Shown here piece after piece: positions 1,471-13,905 of a DNA stretch of 64,000 nucleotides. Position 1 is the stretch's first letter; every line of letters starts with the position of its first letter. The notes beneath the pieces are model-generated. The model was not told the DNA's origin. It saw nothing but the letters and a program-made list of their open reading frames with translations, and did not search any database. The stretch comes from Flavobacterium sp. N2038. GTDB lineage: Bacteria > Bacteroidota > Bacteroidia > Flavobacteriales > Flavobacteriaceae. Where the stretch lies: contig NZ_CP110001.1 of assembly GCF_025947185.1 (NCBI RefSeq), positions 496,001 to 560,000 on the forward strand, given 5' to 3'. Both the position numbers and the translations under genes were made by a program.

Positions 1471-1550
1471 GCCCGGATGGCGGAATTGGTAGACGCGCTG
1501 GTCTCAAACACCTGTGGGAAACCGTGCCGGTTCGACTCCGGCTCCGGGTA
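1471..1550 (+). tRNA. tRNA-Leu (anticodon CAA)
   Basis: An 80-nt class II tRNA. The acceptor arms GCCCGGA and TCCGGGT pair with one G-U, the D-arm reads GGCGGAATTGGTAGACGC, the anticodon loop is CTCAAAC with CAA at 1505-1507, there is a long variable arm, and the T-arm contains GGTTCGACTCC. The anticodon stem has one T-T mismatch. CCA is not fully encoded (CAT follows the discriminator A). Its 3' end is the attachment site of the integrated element downstream. Confidence 0.95.
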
Positions 1551-1551
1551 C
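1537..1551 (+). other. left attachment site core, inside the tRNA-Leu 3' end
   Basis: TCCGGCTCCGGGTAC is repeated exactly at 11236-11250. Bases on both sides differ between the two copies, so the identical core is 15 bp. It covers the T-arm 3' strand and acceptor stem, so the tRNA gene stays intact after integration. This is the usual signature of a tyrosine recombinase using a tRNA gene. Confidence 0.9.
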
Positions 1552-1556
1552 ATTAA

Positions 1557-1603
1557 AAGTCTGTAATAGCGTTGTTAGTCAACGTTTTACAGGCTTTTTT
1601 TAT
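1557..1603 (+). terminator. element-borne terminator after tRNA-Leu
   Basis: AGTCTGTAA (1558-1566) pairs with TTACAGGCT (1587-1595) through one G-U, and a T run follows. It lies inside the element, 7 nt after the att core, and probably ends the tRNA transcript in place of the host terminator now displaced to 11253. Confidence 0.7.
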
Positions 1604-1608
1604 TTCAT

Positions 1609-1630
1609 TTGCCCGCTATTTGCCCGACAT
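1609..1630 (+). repeat. left arm-type recombinase sites (two tandem 11-mers)
   Basis: TTGCCCGCTAT (1609-1619) is followed directly by TTGCCCGACAT (1620-1630). The second 11-mer occurs twice in tandem at 11066-11087 near the other end, in the same orientation. Paired direct repeats close to both att sites are what is expected of the arm-binding sites of a lambda-type integrase. Confidence 0.75.
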
Positions 1631-1706
1631 TTCGAGAAACACTAAAAAAAACATACATTTGTGATGGTTTACGATGCCAATTATAAACCAACGTTTGAAC
1701 AACGCA

Positions 1707-1737
1707 AAACGGGAGCTTGAACAACTCCCGTTTTTTT
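1707..1737. terminator. strong hairpin terminator
   Basis: AACGGGAG (1708-1715) pairs with CTCCCGTT (1725-1732), followed by a run of T. It may act in both directions because A bases precede it. It isolates the element's left end. No gene is seen between 1552 and 2058; the stretch holds the arm sites, two terminators and repeat copy A. Confidence 0.7.
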
Positions 1738-1833
1738 ATGTGGCAAGGTTTTGAAACGCGAATATTTAGATAAGAAATTTATCAATAGGTTCTAATTTAT
1801 CCAGCTCTTGACCTAAATAATCTTCGTTATCTA

Positions 1834-1990
1834 TCGACTCTCAAAATTCTTTGTTTCATCGCGTGCGCGTAGTGACTTCAATAAAGTCTTCATTTCCTTA
1901 TGGATCCCGAAAACTCTTCAATACTCTTACATACGCGTAATGACTGGGAAAAAACCTTTATCTAATTATAGATTCCGAAACTCTTCCAGA
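1834..1990. repeat. element repeat family, copy A (about two units)
   Basis: Two degenerate units of about 70-85 bp share CTCAAAA/CCGAAAACTCTTC blocks and the core GCGTAGTGACTTC (or GCGTAATGACT). Related units occur at 2511-2604 and 3685-3757, always in non-coding gaps of the left third of the element. Unit pattern: TTATGGACTC, A-run, ACTCTTCA, spacer, ACGCGCGTARTGACTTC, A-run, GTCTTCATTT. Function unknown. Confidence 0.6.
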
Positions 1991-2012
1991 CCTTTGTTTT
2001 AGAATGAACAAT

Positions 2013-2049
2013 AGAAATAAAAAAAGGCGTTCCGGAATGGTTCGCCTTT
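2013..2049 (-). terminator. terminator after the 118-residue exported protein gene
   Basis: AAAGGCG (2023-2029) pairs with CGCCTTT (2043-2049). On the minus strand the hairpin is followed by T residues. It starts 9 nt after the stop of the gene at 2059-2415. Confidence 0.7.
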
Positions 2050-2058
2050 GTTTTAATC

Positions 2059-2415
2059 TTAAATGCTTTTTTTCATTAAATAGTGGTAGACATTTTGACC
2101 TCCGAGTGATATTATGTTGGATGTTACAAAACTATATCCTTGCGAAGACATGAAGTTTAAGGCATCTATCATTGAATTGAACACTAAACCTTCTCCTTTT
2201 TCATCTTTTAAAAGAGTAGCATCCGTATTGCTGGAAAAATACTTCGTCTTTTGGCCTATGTCAATTGTAATTGTAAGCTTTGAGGACATTAACTTGGAAG
2301 TTCCTACTATTTGTAAATATTGCACATCCAAATCTTTAATGGGAATTCCATTAATTGTTTGACCAAAACTCACGAAACCTAAAAGCAAAGCGAAACTTAA
2401 TAATATTTTTTTCAT
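2059..2415 (-). CDS. small exported protein of unknown function
   Basis: 118 residues. It starts with a typical signal peptide (MKKILLSFALLLGFVSFGQT, cleavage probably after the FGQ region), so the mature protein of about 98 residues should be periplasmic or surface-located. The mature part has short alternating beta-type stretches (LTITIDIGQKT, SFVTSNIISLGGQ) and no Cys. I do not recognise the family. It has its own downstream terminator and is flanked by repeat copies A and B, so it is a single-gene cargo unit. Confidence 0.7.
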   Translation of the reverse strand: MKKILLSFALLLGFVSFGQTINGIPIKDLDVQYLQIVGTSKLMSSKLTITIDIGQKTKYFSSNTDATLLKDEKGEGLVFNSMIDALNFMSSQGYSFVTSNIISLGGQNVYHYLMKKSI

Positions 2416-2510
2416 TTTTTATGATTTTAATTAATTGATTCAAAACTAATCTTTTCTACATACAGTTAAAAACGGTTTTCCGTAACATCTTCAGAAGCTG
2501 CGACTTCAAT

Positions 2511-2604
2511 TCCTTATTGACTCAAAAAACTTTTTATTACTCTACGTGCGTAATGACTTCCGAAAAACCTTCATTTACTTATGGACTCAAAAAACTCTTC
2601 ATAT
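2511..2604. repeat. element repeat family, copy B
   Basis: Contains TTGACTCAAAAAACT, the core TGCGTAATGACTTC, CCTTCATTT, then TTATGGACTCAAAAAACTC. It shares order and spacing with copies A and C. It lies between the genes at 2059-2415 and 2639-3190. Confidence 0.6.
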
Positions 2605-2638
2605 CCAATTACCGATCGAAATTTCTACTTTCTAAATT

Positions 2639-3190
2639 TTATTGTTTGATATCATCAATAAGTTTCTTTGCTTTCAAAATGAAATCTGAAATTTCCATTT
2701 TTTTTAATCGCATATCGCATGCAATATCTCCATAGTTGTCACTTAGTTCACCTTTTTTATCTTCATTCAGATTATTATACGCAGCCATATCTATGCCCAG
2801 GAGGATATAATCTATTTCATAAGGTAAATAAAACTCATTTTCAAGATCTGCTAAACTACGTGAAAAAGTTAAAAACTCTTCTTTTTTCTGGTCAGTTTCA
2901 AAATAAATTTCAAGCTCAGAATCTGAAAAAGATTTATTATTCATAACACTGTTGATTGCTTTATGATAGATATCTATGTCAATAAAAAAACTTGATTTAA
3001 AATCTAAGCACATCTTGTTTGCCATACAGGCAACCCTTATTAGATTTAATATTTCAATACTATAACCAAATGATTGTTTTTCCTCCGAGTAAAGAAAACT
3101 TTTCGTGTCTAATACCATAAATGAATTATATTCTCTTTTCTCTAAATACCCTTTCGGGGTAACTTCTGCTTGATTTCTTGTAAGTACCAT
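2639..3190 (-). CDS. hypothetical protein, divergent from the XRE regulator
   Basis: 183 residues, acidic and mostly helical, no signal peptide and no membrane segment. The N-terminal half has a beta-type start (NSFMVLDTKSFLYS) and the C-terminal end is Lys-rich (FILKAKKLIDDIKQ). I do not recognise it. It is transcribed away from the XRE gene through a shared control region with three operator-like palindromes. That layout, where a regulator controls a divergent neighbour, suggests an early or accessory gene held repressed in the integrated state, but this is inference. Confidence 0.7.
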   Translation of the reverse strand: MVLTRNQAEVTPKGYLEKREYNSFMVLDTKSFLYSEEKQSFGYSIEILNLIRVACMANKMCLDFKSSFFIDIDIYHKAINSVMNNKSFSDSELEIYFETDQKKEEFLTFSRSLADLENEFYLPYEIDYILLGIDMAAYNNLNEDKKGELSDNYGDIACDMRLKKMEISDFILKAKKLIDDIKQ

Positions 3191-3214
3191 TTCTTATTTA
3201 TTTTGTGTTTATAA

Positions 3215-3315
3215 TTAACTATCAGTTAAATAACTGTGTTTCAAATGTAAGCAAAAATCAAAAACAAATTAACTAATAGTTTATTTTATTTTAAAATAAT
3301 TAAACCAATAGTTAA
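3215..3315. promoter_or_regulatory. three operator-like palindromes in the XRE control region
   Basis: Site 1 TTAACT-ATC-AGTTAA (3215-3229) is a perfect palindrome with a 3-nt centre. Site 2 TTAACT-AAT-AGTTTA (3269-3283) has one mismatch. Site 3 TAAACC-AAT-AGTTAA (3301-3315) has more. Sites 1 and 2 flank the minus-strand -7 box at 3242; site 3 lies 6 nt upstream of the plus-strand -7 box at 3322. This fits binding by the XRE protein encoded at 3354 and control of both divergent promoters. Confidence 0.7.
3242..3249 (-). promoter_or_regulatory. -7 box for the gene at 2639-3190
   Basis: Reads TACATTTG on the minus strand, an exact TAnnTTTG match, 52 nt before the start codon and between operator sites 1 and 2. 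Confidence 0.55.
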
Positions 3316-3321
3316 ATCATG

Positions 3322-3329
3322 TATATTTG
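3322..3329 (+). promoter_or_regulatory. -7 box for the XRE regulator gene
   Basis: TATATTTG is an exact TAnnTTTG match 24 nt before the ATG. Operator site 3 ends 6 nt upstream, so a bound repressor would block the polymerase. Confidence 0.6.
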
Positions 3330-3353
3330 CTAAACTATTTACAATATTAAATT

Positions 3354-3623
3354 ATGAGTATTTTAAAACTAAAAGAGTTATTAATTGAAAAAGGAATAAC
3401 AAGCAAAGAGCTTTCTGAAAAAGTAGGCGTTTCAACTACTAGTATCAGTCAAATAATTACTGAAAAGCAACAACCTCGGTTTGAATTATTAATTAAAATT
3501 GCTGAGTTTTTGGATGTAGACATTAAAGACCTATTCAATCCGACAAAATCATCTGAAACGGAAACTGTTTTTGTTTTTCGAGACGGAATTTATGTTCCTA
3601 TAGGAGAATTAAAAAAAGAATAA
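3354..3623 (+). CDS. XRE/Cro-CI family transcriptional regulator
   Basis: 89 residues with a helix-turn-helix of the Cro/CI type over residues 4-60: LKELLIEKGITSKELSEKVG, then VSTTSISQIITEKQQPR as turn and recognition helix, then ELLIKIAEFLDVDIKDLF. The remaining 25 residues are too short for a sensor domain. It is likely the element's maintenance regulator, binding the three palindromes in its own upstream region. It is the only plus-strand gene in the element. Confidence 0.9.
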   Translation: MSILKLKELLIEKGITSKELSEKVGVSTTSISQIITEKQQPRFELLIKIAEFLDVDIKDLFNPTKSSETETVFVFRDGIYVPIGELKKE

Positions 3624-3684
3624 TCTGGAAAAACTAGTATTTAATCAAGTAACCAGCTGCTTCAAATGTCAGCTATTTCTTTCT

Positions 3685-3757
3685 GTTTATTATGGACTGA
3701 AAAAACTCTTCATAATCTTTCATTACGCGCGTGTAGTGACTTCGAAAAAGTCTTCTG
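3685..3757. repeat. element repeat family, copy C
   Basis: TTATGGACTGAAAAAACTC, then CATTACGCGCGTGTAGTGA and CTTCGAAAAAGTCTTC. It is one unit of the family also found at 1834-1990 and 2511-2604. The gap 3624-4030 holds only this repeat, a terminator and AT-rich sequence; I see no gene. Confidence 0.6.
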
Positions 3758-3830
3758 AGAAATAAAAATCTGGAGATATTTGATCACAATCTAGGAATTA
3801 AAAAAAACGACAGGAATAACAAGGTTTTCT

Positions 3831-3861
3831 AAGAGGGAGCATCATTAGTTCCCTCTTTTTT
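3831..3861 (+). terminator. hairpin terminator downstream of the XRE gene
   Basis: AAGAGGGA (3831-3838) pairs with TCCCTCTT (3850-3857), followed by a long pyrimidine-rich T run. It is about 200 nt after the XRE stop and separates it from the convergent minus-strand operon. Confidence 0.7.
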
Positions 3862-4030
3862 CTTTTTTTTCGGAACTTTTTTCTTTTTTAAAACTCTCTT
3901 TTAAGATATTTTTTTTAAAAGTTCTTTTTAAAGATTCTTTCTAGAATATCTTTTTATAGGTCGTGTAGTTTTAAAAAATAAATAAAAACAAAATATAAAT
4001 AATAGACAAAAACTCTTATTATAGCTCGTG

Positions 4031-4729
4031 TTATGCTCGTGTTGTTTTTAATTGCTCTAACACTTCTTTCAGCACTTCTTTTTCATATTCCTTGTATTGC
4101 TTCTCTTTAGTTGAATTTCTACGTTTTTCTGCTTCTAAAATCAACTGTTTGAGTGTTATCTTAAAGCTAACATAAAAACCTCTTGTATGTCGTGCATAAG
4201 TAATCAATCCCCAATTATTACGTAATGCTATTTTAATTTTTTTTGTTTGATACTCATTTGCATACTTTTTGACTTCTTTAGATAATTCTGCAATCTCATT
4301 TATTGATCTTATTTTGCCATCCATCCTTGCCCATAAAAACAAATTAGTTGCTTTGTGATACGGTTTGGTCCCTATAATACTTTTAATACCCAAAAAAGCC
4401 AGTAAGCATATTTTATCAAATTCTGTTTTATCATTATTATAGAAATCCCAAAATATAGAAATACTTAAGCCTACTTTAGGGGAGTTAATTGGCAAACTGT
4501 CATAAAGACTTTTTCCATTATCAAATACTCTTTCATAGCTCCCCAACGCTATGGCATAATATTTTGAACTTGATTTTATCTTTTCTAGCTCAGAACCATA
4601 TTCTAACTTTAATGAGTTTTCATAAATGGCATAGGCAATAATATTATCTAATACTTTGCGGTCATCAACAAGAAAAGATTGCAGTATCTGTATCGGAAAA
4701 TTAAAATAACGTTCATCTTTTTTTATCAT
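4031..4729 (-). CDS. hypothetical protein of the element's late-type operon
   Basis: 232 residues, no signal peptide, no clear membrane span. The first 130 residues contain an aromatic-rich helical region (IAYAIYENSLKLEYG, SIFWDFYNN, FDKICLLAFLGIKSI); the last 60 are Lys/Glu-rich and probably coiled coil (ILEAEKRRNSTKEKQYKEYE). No recognised family. It starts 24 nt after the stop of the tape-measure-like gene and looks co-transcribed with it. A role in packaging or replication cannot be claimed from sequence alone. Confidence 0.65.
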   Translation of the reverse strand: MIKKDERYFNFPIQILQSFLVDDRKVLDNIIAYAIYENSLKLEYGSELEKIKSSSKYYAIALGSYERVFDNGKSLYDSLPINSPKVGLSISIFWDFYNNDKTEFDKICLLAFLGIKSIIGTKPYHKATNLFLWARMDGKIRSINEIAELSKEVKKYANEYQTKKIKIALRNNWGLITYARHTRGFYVSFKITLKQLILEAEKRRNSTKEKQYKEYEKEVLKEVLEQLKTTRA

Positions 4730-4753
4730 GACCTCATCTTTATCTGTTCTAAT

Positions 4754-7495
4754 TTAGGTCCATAAGTCTGCACCATCTACAATTCTAAGATATTCTCCTT
4801 GTTCATAATTTATATCTGTTACCGCAACTTTAGGAGCTGGCAGACTCTTATTTGCTTCAGCTACTTTGGCAGCTAATAAATCATAATCAATATCTTTTGC
4901 ATTAGTTGTTTGAGTATTTTTATACATATTCACAACAGATGATGGTAAAAATTGACTTGAAAAATCAATTCCCGCATTGGCATTCATTGCGCGAAGTAAG
5001 TCTCTATTGTTTGCAGTAGCCTTTGCAGTTATAACCGATTCTCCTTTTGAAAGCATGGCCGGAATACTGTCGCTAGTTCCGGTACCTGGTCCATCTAAAT
5101 CAACTGCTCCTTTAGCTAATTTAAGCCCTGATATCTTTGCTACAGTAGCAAATCCAGTAGCAATTGTAACCCCAGCAACTATTCCGCCTAAAGGATAAGC
5201 ATAATCTTTCAAAGCTCTAGTTGCTCCAACCAAAGTATTTATTGTAGCTTCTGCGATTGCCAAAGCTTTAAAAGCTACTGTATTTTCTTTAAACAACCCT
5301 GCAGCTTCACTTAGCGTTTTTGCAATAACTTGCAGCTTCACTAATTCAACCTCTTTACGCAATTCAACTTCAGATTTAGCATATTTTTTATTTATCAACT
5401 CAATACTAGCGCCATTTTTTTCAGCTGCTTTAATTTCAATCAATCTTTCCTGTTCTAATTTTTGAATTTTCAAATCCAGATCTTCTTGATTAATAGCTAT
5501 TTTATTTTCTAAATCAATTGCTCTTCTATCAATTTCAGCAAGTCTTTTTTCTTCTTCAAGAGCTTTCTTTTCCTCTGCAAACCTATCATCTATTGCTTTA
5601 ATTTCAGAATTATACTCCTCAGCATTTATCTGCCCCTCTTCTAATCTTTTTGTCTGAAAGGCTGCTTCAGCCTCTGATATGCGATTTAAACGATCTATTT
5701 CTTGTGCAACTAGCTCATCAGTTAGAAACTTATTAGCATCAAGTCTTATCTTATTGTTGGCTAAAAAAGCCTGTAATTCTTGATCCGCAATGGTTATAAC
5801 AACATTTGCCTGAGCTCTTAAGAAATCATTTTTGATATTATTTTGATCTGTTAGAAGTTTAAGCTTATCTATTTCCGTTTTTTTGGTAGCATCAAATTCC
5901 AGTTGAGCAATTTGCAATTTCTTGTCTCGAATTTGCTCTTCATATTTCAATGCTTCAGCTAATGATTTTGCACGAATTCCCTGTTGAGAAATAAATAATT
6001 CAAGCTCTGCTTTTGCTTTTGCTGCATCATCATCTAATATTTTTTGTAATGCTTCTTGTCTTTTTTTCTCTGCTTCGAGTGCATCTTGAGCTGCCTTTTC
6101 TCTTTTAGCCTGGGCGTCTTCATAAAGTTTATCTTGTGCATTTTGATTTTTCTCTAAACGTTTTGTTGATTCTGCATCAATGGCAATTTTACCAAGTTCT
6201 GCTTCCTTTAACATTTTAAGTTCTTCATCAGTAATTTTACCTAAGTTTAATAGGTAAGTACCGTAAGCAATTGTATTACGTTTTAGGTTTTCAAGTTCAG
6301 TACTTGACAAAGAGCCTTTGATTCTTGCGGCTTCTATTGCTTGATCTAATGCGGCTTGTGCATTAGCGGAACGTTGTTTGTAATTTGCTGTTTCGATTGC
6401 CTCTGCTTTCTGCAAAAAAGCAATTCTTTCTTTTTCGGTAAGGGTTCTGTTTTTTGATTTGACTATCAACTCATCATATTGTTGGGCCGCTTTTGCATTT
6501 GCAACCTCTTGTGAATTTTGTAAGTCAGCTAGATCTTGTTGAGCTGCTTTTAATTTAGCTGCATCCCTTGCGGCTTTAGCCATATTATCTCCTAAATCTG
6601 AAAATGCTTTTCCAGAATCTTGTGATGAATCAAATAACGATGCAAGCGCTTGCTGAACAACCCTAATTGCTGCACCAAAAGCAGCCATGCCTTGCTCTAT
6701 TTTATCAACTAATGGATCGAATGTTTTGAAGTAACTAATTAGTAGAGCGATTGCAACTACAATAAGTCCAATTCCAGTAGCTGCAAGTACCAATGAAAAA
6801 ATTCTCATTGCACCGGCTCCTAAGTTAGTTGCAATTGTAAGTGCCTTTTGAGATGCTGTCATTCCCTCAGTTCCATCGGCAGCATTTCTCATGTTTTTTG
6901 CAGCTTCAACAATACCATTTTTCAACGGAACAAATAAACTTGAAGTTTGTTTTAATGCATCTCCGATTGTTTTTAATTCACCTCCAAACAATCCTGTTTC
7001 TGCAACAGCATCTTTAATGGCTGATGTATAATCCCCAATCCCTATTTTTTGCTTTTCGAGTTCCGAAACATTTTCTTTTATAAATTTATCATTTGCATCA
7101 ATTTTAGCATTTAACTCATTTAAAATTTCTAAATGATTCTCATCTGCAATATTTAATTCATTACGAATTTTTTTGAGTTCTGCATTATTATTTTTTGCAT
7201 CTGTAATAGATTTATTTTGTTGATCTAATGCCAATGATATTTTTTCATTAACTGTTAAAAATTCTCTATTAGCATTAAGCAAATTAACGAGTTGCTTCTG
7301 GTTCATGTTGTATTCTCCGGAAAGTTTTGAAACTTTAGCGGAAATCTGTACATAAGTATCACTTGATGTGTCCCCGGCTTTTTTCAATGCAGCCTGAGCT
7401 TCACGTGCTTTATCAAGCTCTGTTTTTAATGAGGCTGATTTTGCAATGATGGCCTCAACATCAATATCTAATTCTATAATTTTCCTCTTATCCAT
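4754..7495 (-). CDS. phage tail tape-measure-like protein
   Basis: 913 residues. Residues 1-160 are coiled coil, about 215-265 form a hydrophobic part (MRIFSLVLAATGIGLIVVAI), about 300-690 are a long Lys/Glu/Ala-rich coiled coil, and the C-terminal region contains LAKGAVDLDGPGTGTSDSIP followed by AMLSKGESVI. That Gly-rich motif before an AMLS-GE segment is typical of the C-terminus of tape-measure proteins in Bacteroidota phages. In phages such a protein sets tail length and helps DNA entry. No other tail, capsid or terminase gene is present, which is odd. It lies in a run with a nuclease and small regulators. A large coiled-coil membrane-active protein with another role is the main alternative. 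Confidence 0.78.
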   Translation of the reverse strand: MDKRKIIELDIDVEAIIAKSASLKTELDKAREAQAALKKAGDTSSDTYVQISAKVSKLSGEYNMNQKQLVNLLNANREFLTVNEKISLALDQQNKSITDAKNNNAELKKIRNELNIADENHLEILNELNAKIDANDKFIKENVSELEKQKIGIGDYTSAIKDAVAETGLFGGELKTIGDALKQTSSLFVPLKNGIVEAAKNMRNAADGTEGMTASQKALTIATNLGAGAMRIFSLVLAATGIGLIVVAIALLISYFKTFDPLVDKIEQGMAAFGAAIRVVQQALASLFDSSQDSGKAFSDLGDNMAKAARDAAKLKAAQQDLADLQNSQEVANAKAAQQYDELIVKSKNRTLTEKERIAFLQKAEAIETANYKQRSANAQAALDQAIEAARIKGSLSSTELENLKRNTIAYGTYLLNLGKITDEELKMLKEAELGKIAIDAESTKRLEKNQNAQDKLYEDAQAKREKAAQDALEAEKKRQEALQKILDDDAAKAKAELELFISQQGIRAKSLAEALKYEEQIRDKKLQIAQLEFDATKKTEIDKLKLLTDQNNIKNDFLRAQANVVITIADQELQAFLANNKIRLDANKFLTDELVAQEIDRLNRISEAEAAFQTKRLEEGQINAEEYNSEIKAIDDRFAEEKKALEEEKRLAEIDRRAIDLENKIAINQEDLDLKIQKLEQERLIEIKAAEKNGASIELINKKYAKSEVELRKEVELVKLQVIAKTLSEAAGLFKENTVAFKALAIAEATINTLVGATRALKDYAYPLGGIVAGVTIATGFATVAKISGLKLAKGAVDLDGPGTGTSDSIPAMLSKGESVITAKATANNRDLLRAMNANAGIDFSSQFLPSSVVNMYKNTQTTNAKDIDYDLLAAKVAEANKSLPAPKVAVTDINYEQGEYLRIVDGADLWT

Positions 7496-7515
7496 ATTGT
7501 AAAAAATAATTGTTC

Positions 7516-7965
7516 TTAATTTACAAATGCGTTAAACCAATCGTAAAACTGAGTAAAGTTCCGAATAACAATATAAACGCCTCCAGCTCGTTCAATTTGT
7601 TTTTGATATTCAATTTGATCTTTACTTTGGTAATTATCCCTAGTACCTTCGCACTTAATTTCAATCTTGATGCTTCTGCCTTTTATGGTTGCCGAAATAT
7701 CAGAAGTGCCTACTTGGCCGCTCCCTTTTATCCATTTTGTTTTGCCGTTGAGGTTTATTTGTTGGCCAGTAGAATTTATTCGCTCAGCTTGATAATTATT
7801 TAAATTCACAAAATCAATTACACAACGAGTCAGATCGTTTGTTTTATCATCTCTGTAACTTTGTTTTGGTGGATAAGGGAAATTAGGATACTGCTCCTTA
7901 GTTCTTTTGAGTGCCAATGCTTCTAGGGCTTTTACACTTTCTGGTTTAATGTATCTTGTCTTCAT
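7516..7965 (-). CDS. VRR-NUC-like PD-(D/E)XK nuclease
   Basis: 149 residues. The C-terminal two thirds show the pattern SGQVGTSDI, IKIEIKCEGTRDNYQSKDQ, then IEYQKQIERAGGVYIVI. This fits the VRR-NUC fold: SD supplies the metal-binding Asp, ExK the catalytic pair, QS..Q follows, and an AGG-YxV strand closes the core. The family includes small phage nucleases linked to DNA replication or recombination. It overlaps the upstream gene by 4 nt and precedes the tape-measure-like gene by 20 nt, so it belongs to one transcript. The exact substrate is unknown. Confidence 0.75.
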   Translation of the reverse strand: MKTRYIKPESVKALEALALKRTKEQYPNFPYPPKQSYRDDKTNDLTRCVIDFVNLNNYQAERINSTGQQINLNGKTKWIKGSGQVGTSDISATIKGRSIKIEIKCEGTRDNYQSKDQIEYQKQIERAGGVYIVIRNFTQFYDWFNAFVN

Positions 7966-8246
7966 TGTCCAGGAATATTAGTTTGCCTTGAAGGTTCTGG
8001 AAAGAGATCCGGATTAGTCGAATAAATTCCAACCCTGTCACTTCCGGTTATTTTGCATCTACGATAACCTACTAATGCAATACGGTTCTCCTTTCTAAAA
8101 GTCCTAACGTATCTGCAAATGTTTTCACGCATTATTTCGGTTTCTACATCGACTTCTTTCATTGTCTTTGGAAACTCAAAAAAAGAATTAAATACCTTGG
8201 CTAATTGGTCCTTTGGAGTTTTGTCCGTACTCATAGCCCTATTCAT
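7962..8246 (-). CDS. small winged-helix-like protein
   Basis: 94 residues. The middle reads FPKTMKEVDVETEIMRENIC and RYVRTFRKENRIALVGYRRC, resembling a winged helix-turn-helix that appears in short genes near phage replication nucleases. This is a weak call; treat it as hypothetical. Translation may start at the second Met (8234), which removes the 8-nt overlap with the upstream HTH gene. It overlaps the nuclease gene downstream by 4 nt, so translational coupling is likely. Confidence 0.6.
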   Translation of the reverse strand: MNRAMSTDKTPKDQLAKVFNSFFEFPKTMKEVDVETEIMRENICRYVRTFRKENRIALVGYRRCKITGSDRVGIYSTNPDLFPEPSRQTNIPGQ

Positions 8247-8520
8247 TCAAAGGTTTCAAGCTTTCTTCGATATCAGAACGTAAGAAGTAAACACGGGATC
8301 CAAGTCCTAGTGGTTTTAGCTTTTTTGATTTGCACCAATTGTGAATAGTAGATAAATCTACACTAAACATTTGGGCCACATCTTGACGGGTCAAATATTC
8401 GTTTGGTTGTTTTGGCGTGAAATGTTTTAGAAATTCTTCTAATTGATTTTTTACTCCAGCTGCTATTTCGCTTTTGAGTTCTTCAGGTGTAGTTTGTATA
8501 AATTGAACAGTTGCGCTCAT
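8239..8520 (-). CDS. excisionase/AlpA-like helix-turn-helix protein
   Basis: 93 residues. The C-terminal half is a MerR/excisionase-type HTH: EYLTRQDVAQMFSVDLSTI, then HNWCKSKKLKPLGLGSRVYF and LRSDIEESL. This pattern is shared with helix_turn_helix domain-17 proteins and recombination directionality factors of Bacteroidota elements. It heads the operon 8520-4031. It could act as the excisionase for the recombinase at 9658, as an activator of this operon, or both. Confidence 0.8.
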   Translation of the reverse strand: MSATVQFIQTTPEELKSEIAAGVKNQLEEFLKHFTPKQPNEYLTRQDVAQMFSVDLSTIHNWCKSKKLKPLGLGSRVYFLRSDIEESLKPLNE

Positions 8521-8564
8521 AACTAAAATGTTTAATTGTTATGGTGCAAATGAATTGAAACAAA

Positions 8565-8599
8565 ACACCCACTAACTTACCAGTGGTGTATTAGTGGGT
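8565..8599 (-). terminator. hairpin after the RteC-like gene
   Basis: ACCCACTAA (8567-8575) pairs with TTAGTGGGT (8591-8599). In minus-strand sense it is followed by GTTTTGTTTC. A second, overlapping pairing (ACACC 8565-8569 with GGTGT 8585-8589) is possible, so the region could switch between two folds. It lies 33 nt after the stop of the gene at 8632 and 45 nt before the next start. Confidence 0.55.
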
Positions 8600-8631
8600 T
8601 TAAATTTTAACATTTTTAAATTTAATTACGT

Positions 8632-9297
8632 TTAATCTTTTCTTTTTATCCAGTTCAATAATGAGGTTTCTAAAGTATTGATTACCGGTGTTAGTTCTTT
8701 GGTTCTATTTCTAACTTGTTTTAGTTTATCGCTTTTATCAAAATCTTTAACATTGAAAAAACGTTTCATTTTTTCAAACACTATTGCTTCATTTTTGACT
8801 TTACCAATATAACCACTTTCAATTAAGGCTTTTGTAAATTCAGAAAAATCTAAAGTTGATCCTTGCCAATCTATTGTGTTGATTATTGACGTATCGATTG
8901 ATGTTCCAGATTCTAATTTTTTATCTTCCAAAAAGGTTATTATTTTAGAAAAACTTTTGCCTAGGTTTTCAGCAAGTTCAAAGTCAAAATGAAAAACTTC
9001 AGCTTCCTTTTCAATATGTTTACTCTCATGATCAACAAGCTTACCGCCTACATAGCGCGTTCTTATCTTATTAAGTATTTCATCAATTAGATTTTCCCCT
9101 GTAAGTTGAGGCTTTGTATAATGCTTATTAGATGCTTCAGGTAGAAAAACAATTACATTTTCCAAACAATGATTATAAAGTCTTATTTGTTCGTTACAAA
9201 AGTCAACCTCATCATTGTCTTCGTATGCCTTTAGAAAGTTTGTTAACTCGCTACTATAGTTCTCTTTGAAGTTTTTAAATGTGTAATAAATATTCAT
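8632..9297 (-). CDS. RteC-like protein
   Basis: 221 residues, soluble. The C-terminal part follows the pattern seen in RteC-domain proteins of Bacteroidota conjugative elements: IDWQGSTLDFSEFTKALIES, GYIG, a middle segment on an FFNV..FD motif, and a closing RNRTKELTPVINTLETSLL. In CTnDOT, RteC takes part in control of excision. Here the N-terminal half also fits a degenerate RteC (a predicted helical region with IRLYNHCLENVIVFLP). It is preceded by a palindrome at 9366-9386. The assignment is by eye and moderate. Confidence 0.6.
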   Translation of the reverse strand: MNIYYTFKNFKENYSSELTNFLKAYEDNDEVDFCNEQIRLYNHCLENVIVFLPEASNKHYTKPQLTGENLIDEILNKIRTRYVGGKLVDHESKHIEKEAEVFHFDFELAENLGKSFSKIITFLEDKKLESGTSIDTSIINTIDWQGSTLDFSEFTKALIESGYIGKVKNEAIVFEKMKRFFNVKDFDKSDKLKQVRNRTKELTPVINTLETSLLNWIKRKD

Positions 9298-9365
9298 AAT
9301 GATGCCAGTTTTAACTTTTGAACGTGTTATATTTTTTCTTTTTCTAAAATTGTATTTGTCTGTAT

Positions 9366-9386
9366 GAGTAATATATTATATTACTC
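9366..9386. promoter_or_regulatory. perfect palindrome upstream of the RteC-like gene
   Basis: GAGTAATATA and TATATTACTC flank a single central T, giving perfect 10-bp arms. It sits about 70 nt upstream of the start at 9297, in a 135-nt gap. It has no T-run, so an operator is more likely than a terminator. Confidence 0.5.
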
Positions 9387-9432
9387 GTCTGCTTAATACT
9401 CAATACTTTTTCAAAACAAAGTATTAGTCAAT

Positions 9433-9651
9433 CTATTTAGTCAAACTAGCTAATACTTTTAATTTCAGTTCTGGAGATAATTCAAATTTGCCCTTTCGGG
9501 TGGAGTTGGAAGCTCCCAAACTATCCAACTCCTGTTTTAAGTAACTCTTACGGCTAGTAATTGAACTTAATCCTTGTTTAAAAAGCTCTTCCTGAATTTC
9601 TAACTCTTCAAGCTGGCTTTTTAGGAACTTTATTTTTTCTTTTTTATTCAT
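9433..9651 (-). CDS. small coiled-coil protein co-transcribed with the integrase
   Basis: 72 residues, very Lys/Glu/Leu-rich. Residues 1-45 form a likely coiled coil (KIKFLKSQLEELEIQEELF) followed by a short Pro-containing tail ending KLKVLASLTK. It starts 6 nt after the integrase stop, so translational coupling is likely. Family not recognised. Its position suggests a recombinase accessory or regulatory peptide, but there is no direct evidence. Confidence 0.6.
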   Translation of the reverse strand: MNKKEKIKFLKSQLEELEIQEELFKQGLSSITSRKSYLKQELDSLGASNSTRKGKFELSPELKLKVLASLTK

Positions 9652-9657
9652 CTGCTT

Positions 9658-11004
9658 TTAGTTCTCAGTTCCATTTTTTATTACTTTCATTTCTATTTTT
9701 TTGTTTTTGTGCATATCATTGTAAAACTTCATAAATAAGTCTGCATTTTCGTCTTTATCTTCTGGAGCATTAATGTAGACTCTAAAAATAGATTCTTTGC
9801 TATGGCCGGAAATACCCATTAAAACGGGAGTGGGTATTTTTTTGTAATAGTTAGTACAAAACGAACGCCTAAAACTATGTGTTGTGATTAATTTATGTTT
9901 CTCGTATAAATCGAATTTTTTGCGACCGGTTTCGGAATCAAATATTTTGCCCTCTGTCAATGTATTTATTTTGGCGGTTTCACAAACCTTTTTAATATGG
10001 TCATTTAGTTTTTGTGTTGTGATTTTATAAGGAAAACTGTTTTCGAGTATGTCGATAACATGGGGAGCAATTATTCCTACAGTAACAGCCTTTTTCGTTT
10101 TCTGCTGTATTAGATCTAAATACATATTTCCACCTTTGTATCTAATATTGTCCTTTGTAATGCTCAACAAATCCCCGCCCCGTTGTCCAATTTCACAGCC
10201 AATTAATAACCATTTACGAGCGTTTTGGTGTGCTTCGCTTTTTATGTCCGCCTTCTTAATTTCGTCCAACTCATCAAAAGATAGAGTTTGAATATATCGA
10301 TCGTCATCGCTTTCTGATGCAATCGTTATTTGTTTTGCATACGAATTAACTTGGAGTCCTTTGTTTTCTGCTTCGATGCAAACAGTTTTAATGTTTGCAA
10401 TATGTTTTGAAGCTGTATTTACGGCATATTTTTTAGTTTTAAGCAGCCAATGTTCAAACTTATCTATTAAAGCTTGATTAATATCTATAAAATGCACTTG
10501 CTTTTTAATATTGACCTCATATTCCTTTAGTATGTTTTTTGTTGATATGTAGCTATTTTTACGACTAAGTGAAAGTCCATGTTTGTAACCACCTTTTACT
10601 TTTACTTTCCGGGTATCTGCCGTATCTATTATATTTTGAATGTAATTTACAAGTACTCCCTCATCTGTTTTTTCTATACGTTTAAAACATTCGTTAATTT
10701 TTGACTCCAACCAAAACGTATCTATTACGATACTTTCGCCCATATCAATGTTAATACTCTTAAAAAGGAACGACTCCAATTTCTTGAGATTATTAAATAT
10801 AATTTTGTTTTCGGAGTTGTTTTGTTTAGGGAAGTTGTCTCCTTTTTTAGGCTTTTCCTTTTCGGGAGTATTCCAGTCTTTCGGGTTAATTGAAAAACCT
10901 GTATTTAATTCTAAATCTTGTTTACCTCTTCCTAAAATAACACGGACCTTAATCGATACGTTTTTGTTTGCGCTACTTCGCAATCTGAATTTAATTGATG
11001 CCAT
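9658..11004 (-). CDS. tyrosine recombinase/integrase of the element
   Basis: 448 residues. It has an N-terminal arm-binding region, a SAM-like core-binding domain (about 115-215), and the catalytic domain (about 240-430). Catalytic residues are visible: Arg275 in EIGQRGGDLL, His376 and Arg379 in THSFRRSF, His401 in ISGHSKES, and the nucleophile Tyr410 in FRVYINAPE. It matches the phage-integrase family common in Bacteroidota. It lies 232 bp inside the right att copy, and its promoter box is at 11032-11039. It should catalyse integration and excision at the tRNA-Leu 3' end. Confidence 0.95.
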   Translation of the reverse strand: MASIKFRLRSSANKNVSIKVRVILGRGKQDLELNTGFSINPKDWNTPEKEKPKKGDNFPKQNNSENKIIFNNLKKLESFLFKSINIDMGESIVIDTFWLESKINECFKRIEKTDEGVLVNYIQNIIDTADTRKVKVKGGYKHGLSLSRKNSYISTKNILKEYEVNIKKQVHFIDINQALIDKFEHWLLKTKKYAVNTASKHIANIKTVCIEAENKGLQVNSYAKQITIASESDDDRYIQTLSFDELDEIKKADIKSEAHQNARKWLLIGCEIGQRGGDLLSITKDNIRYKGGNMYLDLIQQKTKKAVTVGIIAPHVIDILENSFPYKITTQKLNDHIKKVCETAKINTLTEGKIFDSETGRKKFDLYEKHKLITTHSFRRSFCTNYYKKIPTPVLMGISGHSKESIFRVYINAPEDKDENADLFMKFYNDMHKNKKIEMKVIKNGTEN

Positions 11005-11031
11005 ATTTTAGTATTGAACGATTGAACAATA

Positions 11032-11039
11032 CAAATCTA
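11032..11039 (-). promoter_or_regulatory. -7 box of the integrase promoter
   Basis: Minus strand TAGATTTG, an exact TAnnTTTG match, 27 nt before the ATG. The arm sites begin 27 bp further upstream, so recombinase binding there could also affect its own transcription. Confidence 0.55.
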
Positions 11040-11065
11040 GGTGTTCTGTAAGATATTTCCAAAAA

Positions 11066-11087
11066 TTGCCCGACATTTGCCCGACAT
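11066..11087 (+). repeat. right arm-type recombinase sites (two tandem 11-mers)
   Basis: TTGCCCGACAT occurs twice back to back (11066-11076, 11077-11087). The same tandem pair, with one variant copy, is at 1609-1630. The gap 11005-11360 otherwise holds the integrase promoter, the right att core and the displaced tRNA terminator; I see no gene. Confidence 0.75.
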
Positions 11088-11235
11088 TTTTACTATCGAA
11101 TTAAATTTTATTCAGTTTCATTCTATAGGTATTTGAACTCAATAAATGATTTAGCTATTGTATTTGTTGAGGTTATAAGTTGATTTCGTAGTTTTTTCAA
11201 GAGTTGGTAAAAACAACAAATTGAATGGTTTCTAT

Positions 11236-11250
11236 TCCGGCTCCGGGTAC
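11236..11250 (+). other. right attachment site core
   Basis: TCCGGCTCCGGGTAC, identical to 1537-1551 in tRNA-Leu. No other tRNA parts are present, so this is the recombination scar and not a second tRNA gene. Confidence 0.9.
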
Positions 11251-11252
11251 GT

Positions 11253-11284
11253 AAAACCTCTTCAGCAATGAAGAGGTTTTTTTT
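11253..11284 (+). terminator. displaced original tRNA-Leu terminator
   Basis: AAAACCTCTTC (11253-11263) pairs with GAAGAGGTTTT (11270-11280), followed by more T. It starts 2 nt after the right att core, where the 3' trailer of the tRNA gene would have been before insertion. Confidence 0.8.
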
Positions 11285-11360
11285 ATGCCTTTTTTCCAGA
11301 TAGCTTCAGCACTACTCTTACATGTTTATTGAATAACCCACATCATATTGTTTAGATATA

Positions 11361-11876
11361 TTACTTTTTCGAGTCATTTATTTCAATAATGATTTTATTA
11401 AAAACATGATAATATTTAATATTTAATTTATCGATTTCTCTTTTAGTCGAAATACTAAACAACAATGGTACATTTCCTCTATAATTTGCAGTATATTCTG
11501 GGGAATTGGTAAAAAGTTCTCGTAACTCAACATGAAACTTATTTAAATCTCGAATTTCAACCCCATAAATATCTCTTAAATATCTCAATAGATGATTCTT
11601 TTTTATATTTTCTATTTTAAACCATCTTGTAATATTTTTAGGTTCTAATGTTCCTGCGTATGCTGATTTGACACATTCATCATAATCAAGTCTTAAATCT
11701 TTTATTTCAGATATAAAATGATCCTTTAAAACTCTTTTGTTTGTTAGCTTATTCTGAATAGTTTTTACAATCCAATAAGCTAATGCTGAATTCACAATAA
11801 TGGCTAAAACATCAATTATATTCGAAAAATCAAGATTCCAGTTAAAAACAAAAACAACTTTTAAGGCATCTCCCAT
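11361..11876 (-). CDS. small membrane-anchored protein, third gene of the STAS/ATPase operon
   Basis: 171 residues. One probable membrane helix lies near the N-terminus (about 20-40, IDVLAIIVNSALAYWIVKTI), followed by a charged, mainly helical cytoplasmic domain with conserved-looking WFKIENIKKNHLLRYLRDIY. I do not recognise the domain. Its start overlaps the end of the DUF4325 gene by 16 nt, so the two are translated together. As membrane partner of a STAS/ATPase pair it could be the sensor or the effector of the module. Confidence 0.7.
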   Translation of the reverse strand: MGDALKVVFVFNWNLDFSNIIDVLAIIVNSALAYWIVKTIQNKLTNKRVLKDHFISEIKDLRLDYDECVKSAYAGTLEPKNITRWFKIENIKKNHLLRYLRDIYGVEIRDLNKFHVELRELFTNSPEYTANYRGNVPLLFSISTKREIDKLNIKYYHVFNKIIIEINDSKK

Positions 11877-12280
11877 ACCTCAAACTTTAATGCATCATTA
11901 ATTAACCTATACCAAGGTTTATGAACTTCTGTAACGATTACTTTATCGTTAGCTTTTCTCCTCTCTTCCCATTGATTATAAGTTTCATTTTCTATCATCT
12001 TAATCCAATGAGGCTCATCATTTGAAATTATAACTACGTATTCTTTAACCTTTTTTAATGTGAAATCATACACTAAATTCCCGAAAGCCTCATCTAAAAA
12101 TGAAGACGCATAAGCATCAACATCGTCTAAGTCAATTGTCAATTTTTCTTTTTTGTCGTATGCATTTTTAAATGCGTCATTGAGAATTTTATGATAAAAT
12201 TCTTCACCTGAAAACTCACTGATTGTACAGTGTCTCAATCCTGGATATTCATCAAAGTCAAATACTCTAATTTTGTTCAT
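11861..12280 (-). CDS. STAS-like DUF4325 protein
   Basis: 139 residues from the ATG at 12280; an in-frame GTG lies one codon upstream. The core KLTIDLDDVDAYASSFLDEA followed by FGNLV matches the STAS-like DUF4325 family, which resembles anti-anti-sigma factors. The Ser pair in ASSFLDE sits where the phosphorylated Ser of SpoIIAA-type proteins lies. It overlaps the STAS-HATPase gene by 14 nt and the membrane protein gene by 16 nt. Role inferred: switch partner of the neighbouring ATPase. Confidence 0.75.
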   Translation of the reverse strand: MNKIRVFDFDEYPGLRHCTISEFSGEEFYHKILNDAFKNAYDKKEKLTIDLDDVDAYASSFLDEAFGNLVYDFTLKKVKEYVVIISNDEPHWIKMIENETYNQWEERRKANDKVIVTEVHKPWYRLINDALKFEVWEMP

Positions 12281-13361
12281 CACAATTAATTGAATTTATT
12301 ACACATTCCTTGTTCATTTCCCATTGATATAAAGTTCCTTTAAATCTTGAAGAGCCGACACGAAATGTTGCGGATTTACTTAAATCACCAAAATGCAAAA
12401 TTACATTATTTGTTAATACTATTAAATTTTTTAAAATACCCTGTTCAAAATTTACTCTCACCGAAGGCAACCCTTTATTTCTATTTTCTTCTTGAGTGCT
12501 TGAACCATATTTTTGTAAAAATGCCCCTTTTAAGACGTCAAGTTTTGAATTAAACCTTAAAAGGTTTGTTATTAAAGCTTTATTAGAAATATAAAGAGTA
12601 TCCAATATACCTTTTCCAACATCTGTAACAGTAAAATAAACTTTGTCATCTGTAAACTTAACCCCTAAAAGCCATTGCTTGTCGATAGTATTGGCATGTT
12701 CAATACTATTTGCACAAATTTCCAACAATACTGTTTTAATTGGTTTAATGTTTTTTCTAGTTCCTGTAAGGTGCTCTACAACATCTTTAATTAATTCAGA
12801 AATTTTTTTACTCTCTGTTTTCGATAATTTTCCAGAACCCTTTTCAAAAAATATCAATTTCGATTTACCATAATCGGGAAATTTTTTATTATTTAAATCT
12901 ACCATATTTGTTAAAAAACCCGACTCAATAATATAATTTCGACATTTTTCATTGTCAGGGAAATCACCTTGTACGTCAATTCCTCTACTATTCAAGTCAT
13001 CTGTTATAGCGGTTAATGCACTTATAGCAGCATAATCAATACTTTCTACATCTTTTAAAGATATTTTTACTTGTTTAACATTTCTGGCTGAATAGATAAT
13101 ACTATCTTTTCCACGTATTTCTCTAAAAAAAGCCAAACAAGATTCTGTATTGTCAATTAATCTAAAATCTTTTGGAGCATACGTAGCAAAATTATATTTT
13201 TTCTTTTTTATAAAACCTTTAGAGAATGATGGAACCATTCTCTTTAATGATGTCTTTTGCTTAAAATTACCCTTTTTTCTTTTCCTTTTAGCTCTTTCTT
13301 TTTGTTTTAACTTACGTTTATGATATCGTCTATAATCTTTTTTTGTATAACATTTTTTCAT
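12267..13361 (-). CDS. STAS-like plus HATPase fusion protein
   Basis: 364 residues. A very basic N-terminus (residues 1-50, many Lys/Arg) may bind nucleic acid or ribosomes. A STAS-like segment (about 80-150) reads VKISLKDVESIDYAAISALT. The GHKL/HATPase domain (about 190-355) has the N-box LLEICANSIEHA, the G1 box VTDVGKGI and a later ENRNKGLPSVR glycine motif. The fold is that of histidine kinases and of anti-sigma kinases; there is no phospho-acceptor His domain. It is first in a three-gene operon with promoter box 13383-13390. It could be a protein kinase acting on the DUF4325 partner. Confidence 0.8.
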   Translation of the reverse strand: MKKCYTKKDYRRYHKRKLKQKERAKRKRKKGNFKQKTSLKRMVPSFSKGFIKKKKYNFATYAPKDFRLIDNTESCLAFFREIRGKDSIIYSARNVKQVKISLKDVESIDYAAISALTAITDDLNSRGIDVQGDFPDNEKCRNYIIESGFLTNMVDLNNKKFPDYGKSKLIFFEKGSGKLSKTESKKISELIKDVVEHLTGTRKNIKPIKTVLLEICANSIEHANTIDKQWLLGVKFTDDKVYFTVTDVGKGILDTLYISNKALITNLLRFNSKLDVLKGAFLQKYGSSTQEENRNKGLPSVRVNFEQGILKNLIVLTNNVILHFGDLSKSATFRVGSSRFKGTLYQWEMNKECVINSINCDEQN

Positions 13362-13382
13362 AGTAACTTAACTCATATCAGA

Positions 13383-13390
13383 CAAATATA
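13383..13390 (-). promoter_or_regulatory. -7 box for the STAS/ATPase operon
   Basis: Minus strand TATATTTG, an exact TAnnTTTG match 21 nt before the start at 13361, giving a short leader. It separates this operon from osmC upstream. Confidence 0.6.
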
Positions 13391-13443
13391 TAATAATTGC
13401 TTTTTCATTTCTTATTCTAATATATAATTTTAAGTATAAATCA

Positions 13444-13905
13444 CTAAACCTCACAACTCGCCTCATGCAAAACAGGAAAATTGCAGGAATTGGCAATAAA
13501 GCACAATTGATTGGCCTTAAAATGTAACTCCAGAGCCAATTCAACCTGATCAGGATTTGAAATTTTTACTTTCGGATATAATCTAACCTCAACGAAACGC
13601 CCGCTTCCATCTGCAGAAACTTCGAGTGTTGCTTCGGCATTGTCGGAATATTCGAGAACTTCTATTCCGCTTTGAGAGCAAACATATAAGTATGACATCA
13701 TATGACAAGAAACCAAACTACTCAGCAATAAATCCTCCGGATTATATAATGACGGATCACCTTTGAAAGCTTTTGCTGCAGAAACATCTAAATTTGGTTT
13801 TCCTTCGATTTTAATTTGATGCGTTTTACTGTAGAACTTTTTTAATTCTTCAGATGGATTTTCTTCCGAAGTCCAGTTTAGCTGTGCTTTAAATAAATGT
13901 TTCAT
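13444..13905 (-). CDS. OsmC family protein
   Basis: 153 residues, the usual length of OsmC/Ohr-like proteins, which reduce organic peroxides with a Cys pair or act in stress tolerance. It shows YNPEDLLLSSLVSCHMMSYL with a first candidate Cys and LCFIANSCNFPV with the second, and the family's beta-helix-beta layout. It is cytoplasmic. It is a single gene with no clear operon partner. The 355-bp stretch upstream (13906-14260) is AT-rich and contains no gene that I can see. Confidence 0.9.
   Translation of the reverse strand: MKHLFKAQLNWTSEENPSEELKKFYSKTHQIKIEGKPNLDVSAAKAFKGDPSLYNPEDLLLSSLVSCHMMSYLYVCSQSGIEVLEYSDNAEATLEVSADGSGRFVEVRLYPKVKISNPDQVELALELHFKANQLCFIANSCNFPVLHEASCEV

Follow-up and report, generated by a model that had tools for sequence, protein, structure and literature searches.

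A STAS-GHKL kinase, a DUF4325 protein and a membrane protein encoded side by side in a Flavobacterium tRNA hotspot: a probable relative of the VapKSC system

Organization of the locus

The window analysed here is a stretch of 64,000 nucleotides from Flavobacterium sp. N2038, the genome of which is a single contig of 4.67 Mb. Three minus-strand ORFs, designated K, S, and M in this order, run from position 13361 down to 11361. K (12267–13361) encodes a STAS-GHKL ATPase of 364 aa, a probable serine kinase as judged from the ORF list, Pfam, and a family alignment. S (11861–12283) encodes a STAS-like DUF4325 protein of 140 aa. M (11361–11876) encodes a membrane protein of 171 aa with 103 homologues and is the proposed effector. 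A preliminary description of this DNA had placed three overlapping genes here, and the overlaps amount to 17 nt between K and S and 16 nt between S and M. The start codon of S is GTG, with an ATG one codon downstream.

A promoter-like box, TATATTTG, is present upstream of K on the minus strand (13383–13390) and had been regarded as the promoter shared by the three genes. The presence of the box is not clearly above chance: the window contains 119 TANNTTTG boxes against 106 expected, and 11 of 100 shuffles contained as many. A TANNTTTG box occurs within 100 nt of K in four of ten other loci. Since the boxes are near chance in number and so few loci have one, a single shared promoter is plausible rather than established. 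Downstream of K and S, the window contains only M and then the tRNA terminator, and M itself could be the immune effector.

Genomic site

The site is anchored by a tRNA-Leu(caa) gene (1471–1551, plus strand), identified by a tRNA call and by comparison with relatives. A neighbouring integrated element (1531–11261) carries a tyrosine-type integrase gene (9658–11004) and is bordered by 32-nt direct repeats (1531–1562 and 11230–11261) that are 81% identical. The second repeat is followed by the tRNA terminator, K-S-M, and an osmC-like gene.

The tRNA-Leu(caa) gene adjoins the osmC-like gene in three of the six relatives compared. Two of them (L164 and L165) have empty sites, with 115 and 36 nt between the tRNA and the osmC-like gene, and the third (L166) contains a different ORF of 376 aa at this position. 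The remaining three are rearranged at the site and uninformative. The earlier placement of the genes beside an integration hotspot is thus borne out. K-S-M alone occupies an approximately 2.1-kb segment (11296–13445) that is missing between the tRNA terminator and the osmC-like gene in the two relatives with empty sites. The possibility that K-S-M is cargo of the neighbouring element was rejected, because the genes lie outside the repeat at 11230–11261 and the relatives show a separate insertion. K-S-M is therefore a separate insertion in a slot of gene turnover. The copy in the window lies in no evident prophage.

The kinase K

K begins with a basic N-terminal extension (residues 1–50; 13212–13361), which contains 23 lysine or arginine and two aspartate or glutamate residues. 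It is followed by a STAS-like segment (about residues 84–150; 12912–13112), delineated by a Pfam STAS match below the cut-off and by alignment with VapK-like rows, and by a GHKL domain (about residues 183–347; 12321–12815), for which there is Pfam, NCBIfam, profile, and alignment evidence. The individual Pfam scores are below their cut-offs, with 19.1 bits for STAS (cut-off 22.6) and 19.1 bits for HATPase_c_2 (cut-off 27.4). The GHKL assignment holds despite these scores, because it is supported by the family alignment of 76 kinases, and the preliminary view of a STAS-like segment fused to a GHKL ATPase stands.

The GHKL motifs comprise the N-box (E214 and N218), the G1 motif D247-x-G249-x-G251, and G297 of the G2 motif. 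E214, N218, D247, G249, and G297 are invariant in all 76 aligned kinases, such that the ATP site is intact at the sequence level across this alignment. G251 is kept in 71, W230 in 73, and W347 in 70 of the 76. A total of 258 homologues of K were found at E ≤ 0.001. The nearest named relative, from Flavobacterium fluvii, is 63% identical.

The basic N-terminus had been called unusual for an ATPase. It is instead a hallmark of the family, being present in 55 of 56 viral-contig kinases longer than 330 aa compared with 32 of 247 control ORFs, when a sequence is counted as basic if the net fraction of K+R minus D+E in the first 45 residues exceeds 0.15.

The DUF4325 protein S

S matches DUF4325 with 56.6 bits in Pfam, well above the cut-off of 23, and its gene comes immediately after K at each of the 12 genome loci with an intact K. 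The serine pair noted previously at the expected phosphorylation site is Ser60-Ser61. Ser61 (codon 12101–12103, minus strand), the presumed phospho-acceptor, is conserved in 86 of 86 aligned rows and Ser60 in 71 of 86. K most likely phosphorylates S on Ser61, a reading to which the logic of the family lends high confidence. The C-terminal tail of S spans about 40 residues in six of the 12 genome loci and is shorter in the remaining six. Among PDB entries, the S profile matches Escherichia VapS best (9z7o; E 0.023). Neither K nor S contains an HTH family according to Pfam. The idea that S is a CapS-like repressor was discarded on this ground; lacking a winged HTH, S is not expected to act as a repressor.

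The membrane protein M

M contains a single hydrophobic segment, as proposed previously for a one-helix membrane protein. Its best 19-mer covers residues 19–37 (11766–11822, minus strand) with a mean Kyte-Doolittle value of 1.82. The content of lysine and arginine is higher after the segment than before it in 52 of 63 M proteins, suggesting that the C-terminal part is cytosolic. Most of M is probably located in the cytosol by this measure.

M matches no Pfam, NCBIfam, or PADLOC family, and Pfam and NCBIfam in particular detect no PIN domain. The only hits in a search against solved structures were helical bundles of de novo design (E 3e-4 at best), which were read as reflecting amphipathic-helix likeness and set aside. 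One M protein has weak PHROGs matches of the holin type (E 6e-5 and 0.045). M diverges fastest of the three proteins: about 24% identity in K corresponds to 13% in M. A profile of the window type of M matches in two of 395 genomes of the phylum, including its own genome, and matches three ORFs in viral loci. It matches two other M groups weakly (probability 48 and 19), and two other groups match one another with a profile probability of 97. A possible common motif, LRxxxT, occurs in only 30 of 74 M proteins, with a control rate of 55 of 751.

Conservation and spread of K-S-M

K was found in at least seven of 398 Flavobacterium genomes and at least seven of 395 genomes of the class (E ≤ 1e-20); the own genome is counted in both surveys, giving 13 places in total, and both counts may be low because at most five first-look candidates were scored per genome. 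The order K-S-M is present in all 12 loci with an intact K. The third gene matches an M profile (E ≤ 0.01) in 11 of them, and the twelfth (L026) has only a hydrophobic ORF of 188 aa at this position. The 13th place (L029) retains only a 102-aa fragment of K.

A search of viral contigs with the S alignment yielded 156 relatives, and the best 80 of the 156 loci were analysed. As these loci were found through S, the co-occurrence of K and M in them is conditional on S. Among the 71 distinct S genes in the best 80 loci, 61 have K directly upstream, and five of the ten without it have less than 1 kb of upstream sequence. A third gene, defined as the longest same-strand ORF of at least 90 aa located −100 to +150 nt from S, lies directly downstream of 67 of the 71 and has a median length of 161 aa. 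A hydrophobic 19-mer with a mean of 1.4 or more within the first 70 residues is present in 58 of these 67 third genes compared with 56 of 342 control ORFs; at a stricter cut of 1.6 the counts are 53 of 67 and 42 of 342. The co-occurrence of the three families, suggested earlier as a check, is thus found in both the genome loci and the viral contigs. The similarity matrices of K, S, and M also agree across 45 representatives (rho 0.66, 0.52, and 0.31), and none of 500 permutations reached as high a value in any comparison.

K-S-M is confined neither to this operon nor to Flavobacterium. On Leptospira plasmid p4, the genes for an ATP-binding, a STAS-like, and a hypothetical protein follow one another and adjoin a nucleotidyltransferase/HepT-like pair. 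Neither the 50,697 phage records nor the 72,556 plasmid records searched contain a match to the K of the window, and three other K queries retrieved only Marinobacter phage AS1 from the phage records. Isolated phages carry K-S-M rarely. A scan of viral sequences found nothing with a close K alignment (A1) and five loci with another (A4). A piece of VapS found nothing in the viral scan and one broken remnant in the plasmid scan.

Association with phage genes

A same-strand phage repressor gene lies within 1.5 kb upstream of the module in 28 of 55 viral loci with K, a third gene, and at least 800 nt of upstream sequence, compared with 12 of 321 control ORFs. The repressor profiles were built from seven of the 55 loci; when these seven are removed, the count is 22 of 48. 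The script scored one locus (L056) as having its repressor on the opposite strand, yet a same-strand repressor is also present there. An integrase gene follows within 1.5 kb in five of the 55 loci. Pfam confirmed the assignment for seven of seven repressors and two of two integrases chosen among the neighbours.

Eight matches in Escherichia coli prophage regions were found among 5,426 genomes, each over 47% of the query with 63–65% identity. Two of these loci were inspected. Both carry K, S, and a hypothetical third gene in inverted orientation, with the antiterminator Q gene on one side and the holin gene on the other. For Francisella phage KIRK, three consecutive proteins have been tabulated near CI and an integrase: one of 293 aa, one with DUF4325, and a transmembrane protein (PMC7924643).

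The position next to a phage repressor gives the module a resemblance to a classical pair of phage genes. The rexAB genes of phage lambda are accessory genes located right after the phage repressor gene, with one sensor part and one membrane part. The likeness is one of description only, and K-S-M differs in having three genes and a kinase-STAS logic.

DUF4325 loci with other partners

DUF4325 occurs in 20 of 198 genomes of the class, and the survey rules out that the domain is always part of K-S-M. Five of the 20 genomes carry K-S-M (four known loci and L148). Three (L142, L143, and L151) have a K-S pair followed by a PIN-like third gene, scoring 21.7–23.5 bits, just under the Pfam cut-off of 23.6. 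In five, no third gene was recognised next to the K-S pair; a further genome has a K-S fusion, and another has S without K. The other five regions gave no S ORF with the S profile and were left outside these classes.

The fusion (L140:3693–4985) joins a K-like GHKL protein and DUF4325 in one ORF of 430 aa, which supports a partnership of K and S. By eye, the two ORFs flanking it resemble 2-oxoacid:ferredoxin oxidoreductase subunits. One of the pairs without a recognised third gene (L152:3616–7943) is flanked on one side by an ORF that resembles HsdS by eye and on the other by HsdR of a type I restriction system, identified by Pfam, as if the K-S pair controlled a restriction enzyme. Four Bacteroidia loci (L145, L146, L147, and L150) pair K with a DUF4325 protein and show no third gene that was recognised; their kinases group together in a quick tree (support 94).

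Comparison with known kinase-STAS systems

The kinase-STAS-effector logic was published in June 2026 (Chambers et al., EMBO J; PMC13373217). According to that report, ssDNA activates CapK, the kinase that phosphorylates CapS, and in CapKS the action of the kinase on the STAS protein frees a promoter. In VapKSC, the third-place gene encodes a PIN toxin that is held by the STAS protein VapS; a phospho-mimic mutant of VapS releases the toxin, and E. coli carrying the operon is protected against one phage (PMC13373217). The passages of the report in which membranes are mentioned concern stress tests and blots, and none of these describes a membrane effector (PMC13373217).

K-S-M resembles VapKSC in being a three-gene operon with an HTH-less STAS-GHKL kinase, a STAS protein with an invariant serine and a short C-terminal region, and a third gene directly downstream, and in lying partly near defence genes. 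Among the differences, its third gene encodes a membrane protein, whereas that of VapKSC encodes a PIN nuclease, and K carries the basic N-terminal extension. K-S-M is probably a relative of the VapKSC phage-defence system with a membrane protein in place of the RNA-cutting toxin. CapK/CapS shares the adjacent STAS-GHKL kinase and STAS substrate with an invariant serine. In contrast, K lacks the N-terminal HTH of CapK and S lacks the winged HTH of CapS, as judged by Pfam. A separate immune operon begins just beyond the CapK/CapS pair; in the window this place is held by M.

In a quick tree, 77 rows of K-S-M kinases split from three VapK-like and four other rows with an SH-aLRT value of 99. The rows were picked by likeness to K, the K-S-M label itself reflects likeness to the K profile, and long branches were flagged. 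The split is therefore support rather than proof. The aromatic residue that serves ssDNA recognition (W68 in CapK, F54 in VapK) seems not to be kept in K. Its presumed place, located via the VapK-like rows, is taken by Ser107, so the signal of K may differ from that of CapK and VapK.

The genes had also been proposed to form a partner-switching device. SpoIIAB/SpoIIAA and RsbW/RsbV likewise combine a GHKL serine kinase with a STAS partner, but in K a STAS segment is fused to the kinase and a membrane protein is the third partner. The K profiles match SpoIIAB structures (E 0.017–0.56) and RsbW (E 0.075) weakly, and K matches the spIIAB model with E 1e-4, far under the model cut-off. When the genes neighbouring the 12 genome loci were read through by eye, no sigma factor or phosphatase was seen as a common fourth gene, which argues against a switch of the sigma-factor type. 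The proposal holds for the conserved trio, the ATP site, and the serine; a partner switch of the sigma-factor type appears less likely, and K-S-M is closer to VapKSC and CapKS. At the sequence level, neither of two outcomes named earlier as refuting the module, a trio that does not stay together or an ATPase that has lost its ATP site, was observed.

DUF4325 is seldom named in the literature searched. No description of the K-S-M unit was found there, preprints and subscription papers having been outside the search.

Proposed mechanism and alternative explanations

We propose that the three genes of K-S-M form a mobile anti-phage relay that resembles a toxin-antitoxin system and has a membrane protein as its effector. 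At rest, unphosphorylated S would keep M inactive. Phage infection or DNA damage would give rise to a nucleic-acid signal sensed by K, through its basic N-terminus and/or a groove between its STAS and GHKL parts. Activated K would phosphorylate S on Ser61, and phospho-S would release M. Free M would then disturb the inner membrane, causing growth stop or cell death before the phage matures. Taken as a whole, this mechanism, modelled on related systems, has in our estimate somewhat better than an even chance of being correct.

The gene order, the co-inheritance, the ATP site, the invariant serine, and the membrane segment in most third genes all support the relay at the sequence level, as does the location in tRNA hotspots and in the immunity regions of phages. 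Several results count against it: PADLOC recognises none of the three proteins of the window, the aromatic residue for ssDNA seems not to be kept, M diverges fast, isolated phages seldom carry the module, and the copy in the window is part of no evident prophage. From CapKS and VapKSC, we infer the phosphorylation of S and the release of an output. The parallel with VapKSC and the fixed gene order make M the most likely target of control by S, with fair confidence. The nucleic-acid signal, the binding of S to M, the action of M on the membrane, and protection against phages are proposed further parts of the relay. K has probably lost the aromatic residue for ssDNA and gained a basic tail, which suggests that it has its own mode of sensing.

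An alternative role for M is that of a sensor or anchor, which would pass a membrane signal to S and K with the output located elsewhere, in transcription or at another unlinked target, as in circuits of the stressosome type. The faster divergence of M is what a sensor might show, and a single membrane segment with a probably cytosolic remainder would suit this role. S, in which Pfam finds no DNA-binding domain, must also act on another protein. The third place is nevertheless held by a STAS-bound toxin gene in VapKSC (PMC13373217) and by PIN genes in L142, L143, and L151, and the unit is self-contained in the 2.1-kb insertion with no further common gene seen. We regard a sensory M as unlikely.

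Alternatively, K-S-M might be a prophage regulator that senses DNA damage and tunes the choice between lysogeny and lysis, with M as a holin-like or anti-holin part. The close linkage to phage repressors, the linkage to lysis genes in the two E. coli loci and in L100, and the weak holin-type matches of one M point in this direction. However, the K-S-M units of Bacteroidia, that of the window included, have no evident phage genes within them, and the E. coli genes run opposite to the late operon, leaving this role improbable. A plain selfish addiction module, which would stabilise an island or prophage with no phage protection, has the least to commend it and is quite improbable: it would fit the overlapping genes, the turnover slot, the patchy spread (at least seven of 398 Flavobacterium genomes), and the HepT/nucleotidyltransferase pair beside the Leptospira copy, but decay-based addiction needs no kinase sensor and the related VapKSC protects against a phage (PMC13373217).

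The anti-phage relay can be placed in a broader frame. K-S-M may be a widespread immune module, so far without a name, that belongs to temperate phages and mobile DNA; in it, a nucleic-acid-triggered serine kinase would free a membrane effector through phosphorylation of a STAS inhibitor, and the basic tail would provide a sensor distinct from those of CapK and VapK. This generalisation is tentative, and we give it slightly less than an even chance. What was known already is the kinase-STAS-effector logic; the version with a membrane protein is new with respect to the literature searched. The relay of kinase and STAS protein, described in 2026 as acting on promoters and on a PIN toxin, probably has a membrane effector among its outputs as well. 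Under the broader reading, DUF4325 in general would be a phospho-switch of kinase-effector modules with interchangeable outputs, such as a membrane protein, a PIN nuclease, or perhaps the type I restriction system of L152. If the relay does drive a membrane effector, phages and islands would have a plug-in sensor module in common, the outputs of which can be exchanged. The proposal offers a testable function for DUF4325 and for prophage genes annotated as hypothetical.

Genes adjacent to other K-S-M loci

PADLOC assigned no family to K, S, or M of the window, nor to the one window neighbour tested, and gave two weak matches only among ten relatives. Of ten hand-picked locus neighbours, eight were matched; these come from L022, L023, L027, and L029. 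In another Flavobacterium (L023:2291–6721), the neighbours of K-S-M include an AbiE pair and genes for type I restriction-modification. Two K-S-M loci from different families (L002:4777–8229 and L027:5403–8933) adjoin a mutase-like gene encoding about 1,150–1,176 aa. The N-termini of the two mutase-like proteins appear similar by eye, and the gene is possibly a common insertion site. In L020 (9519–12894), six similar ORFs of 167–207 aa with the look of repeated lipoproteins are arranged in a row directly upstream of K. Finally, two ORFs that flank K-S-M in L021 (4162–5352 and 9975–11165) are identical in their first 70 residues and resemble reverse transcriptases by eye.
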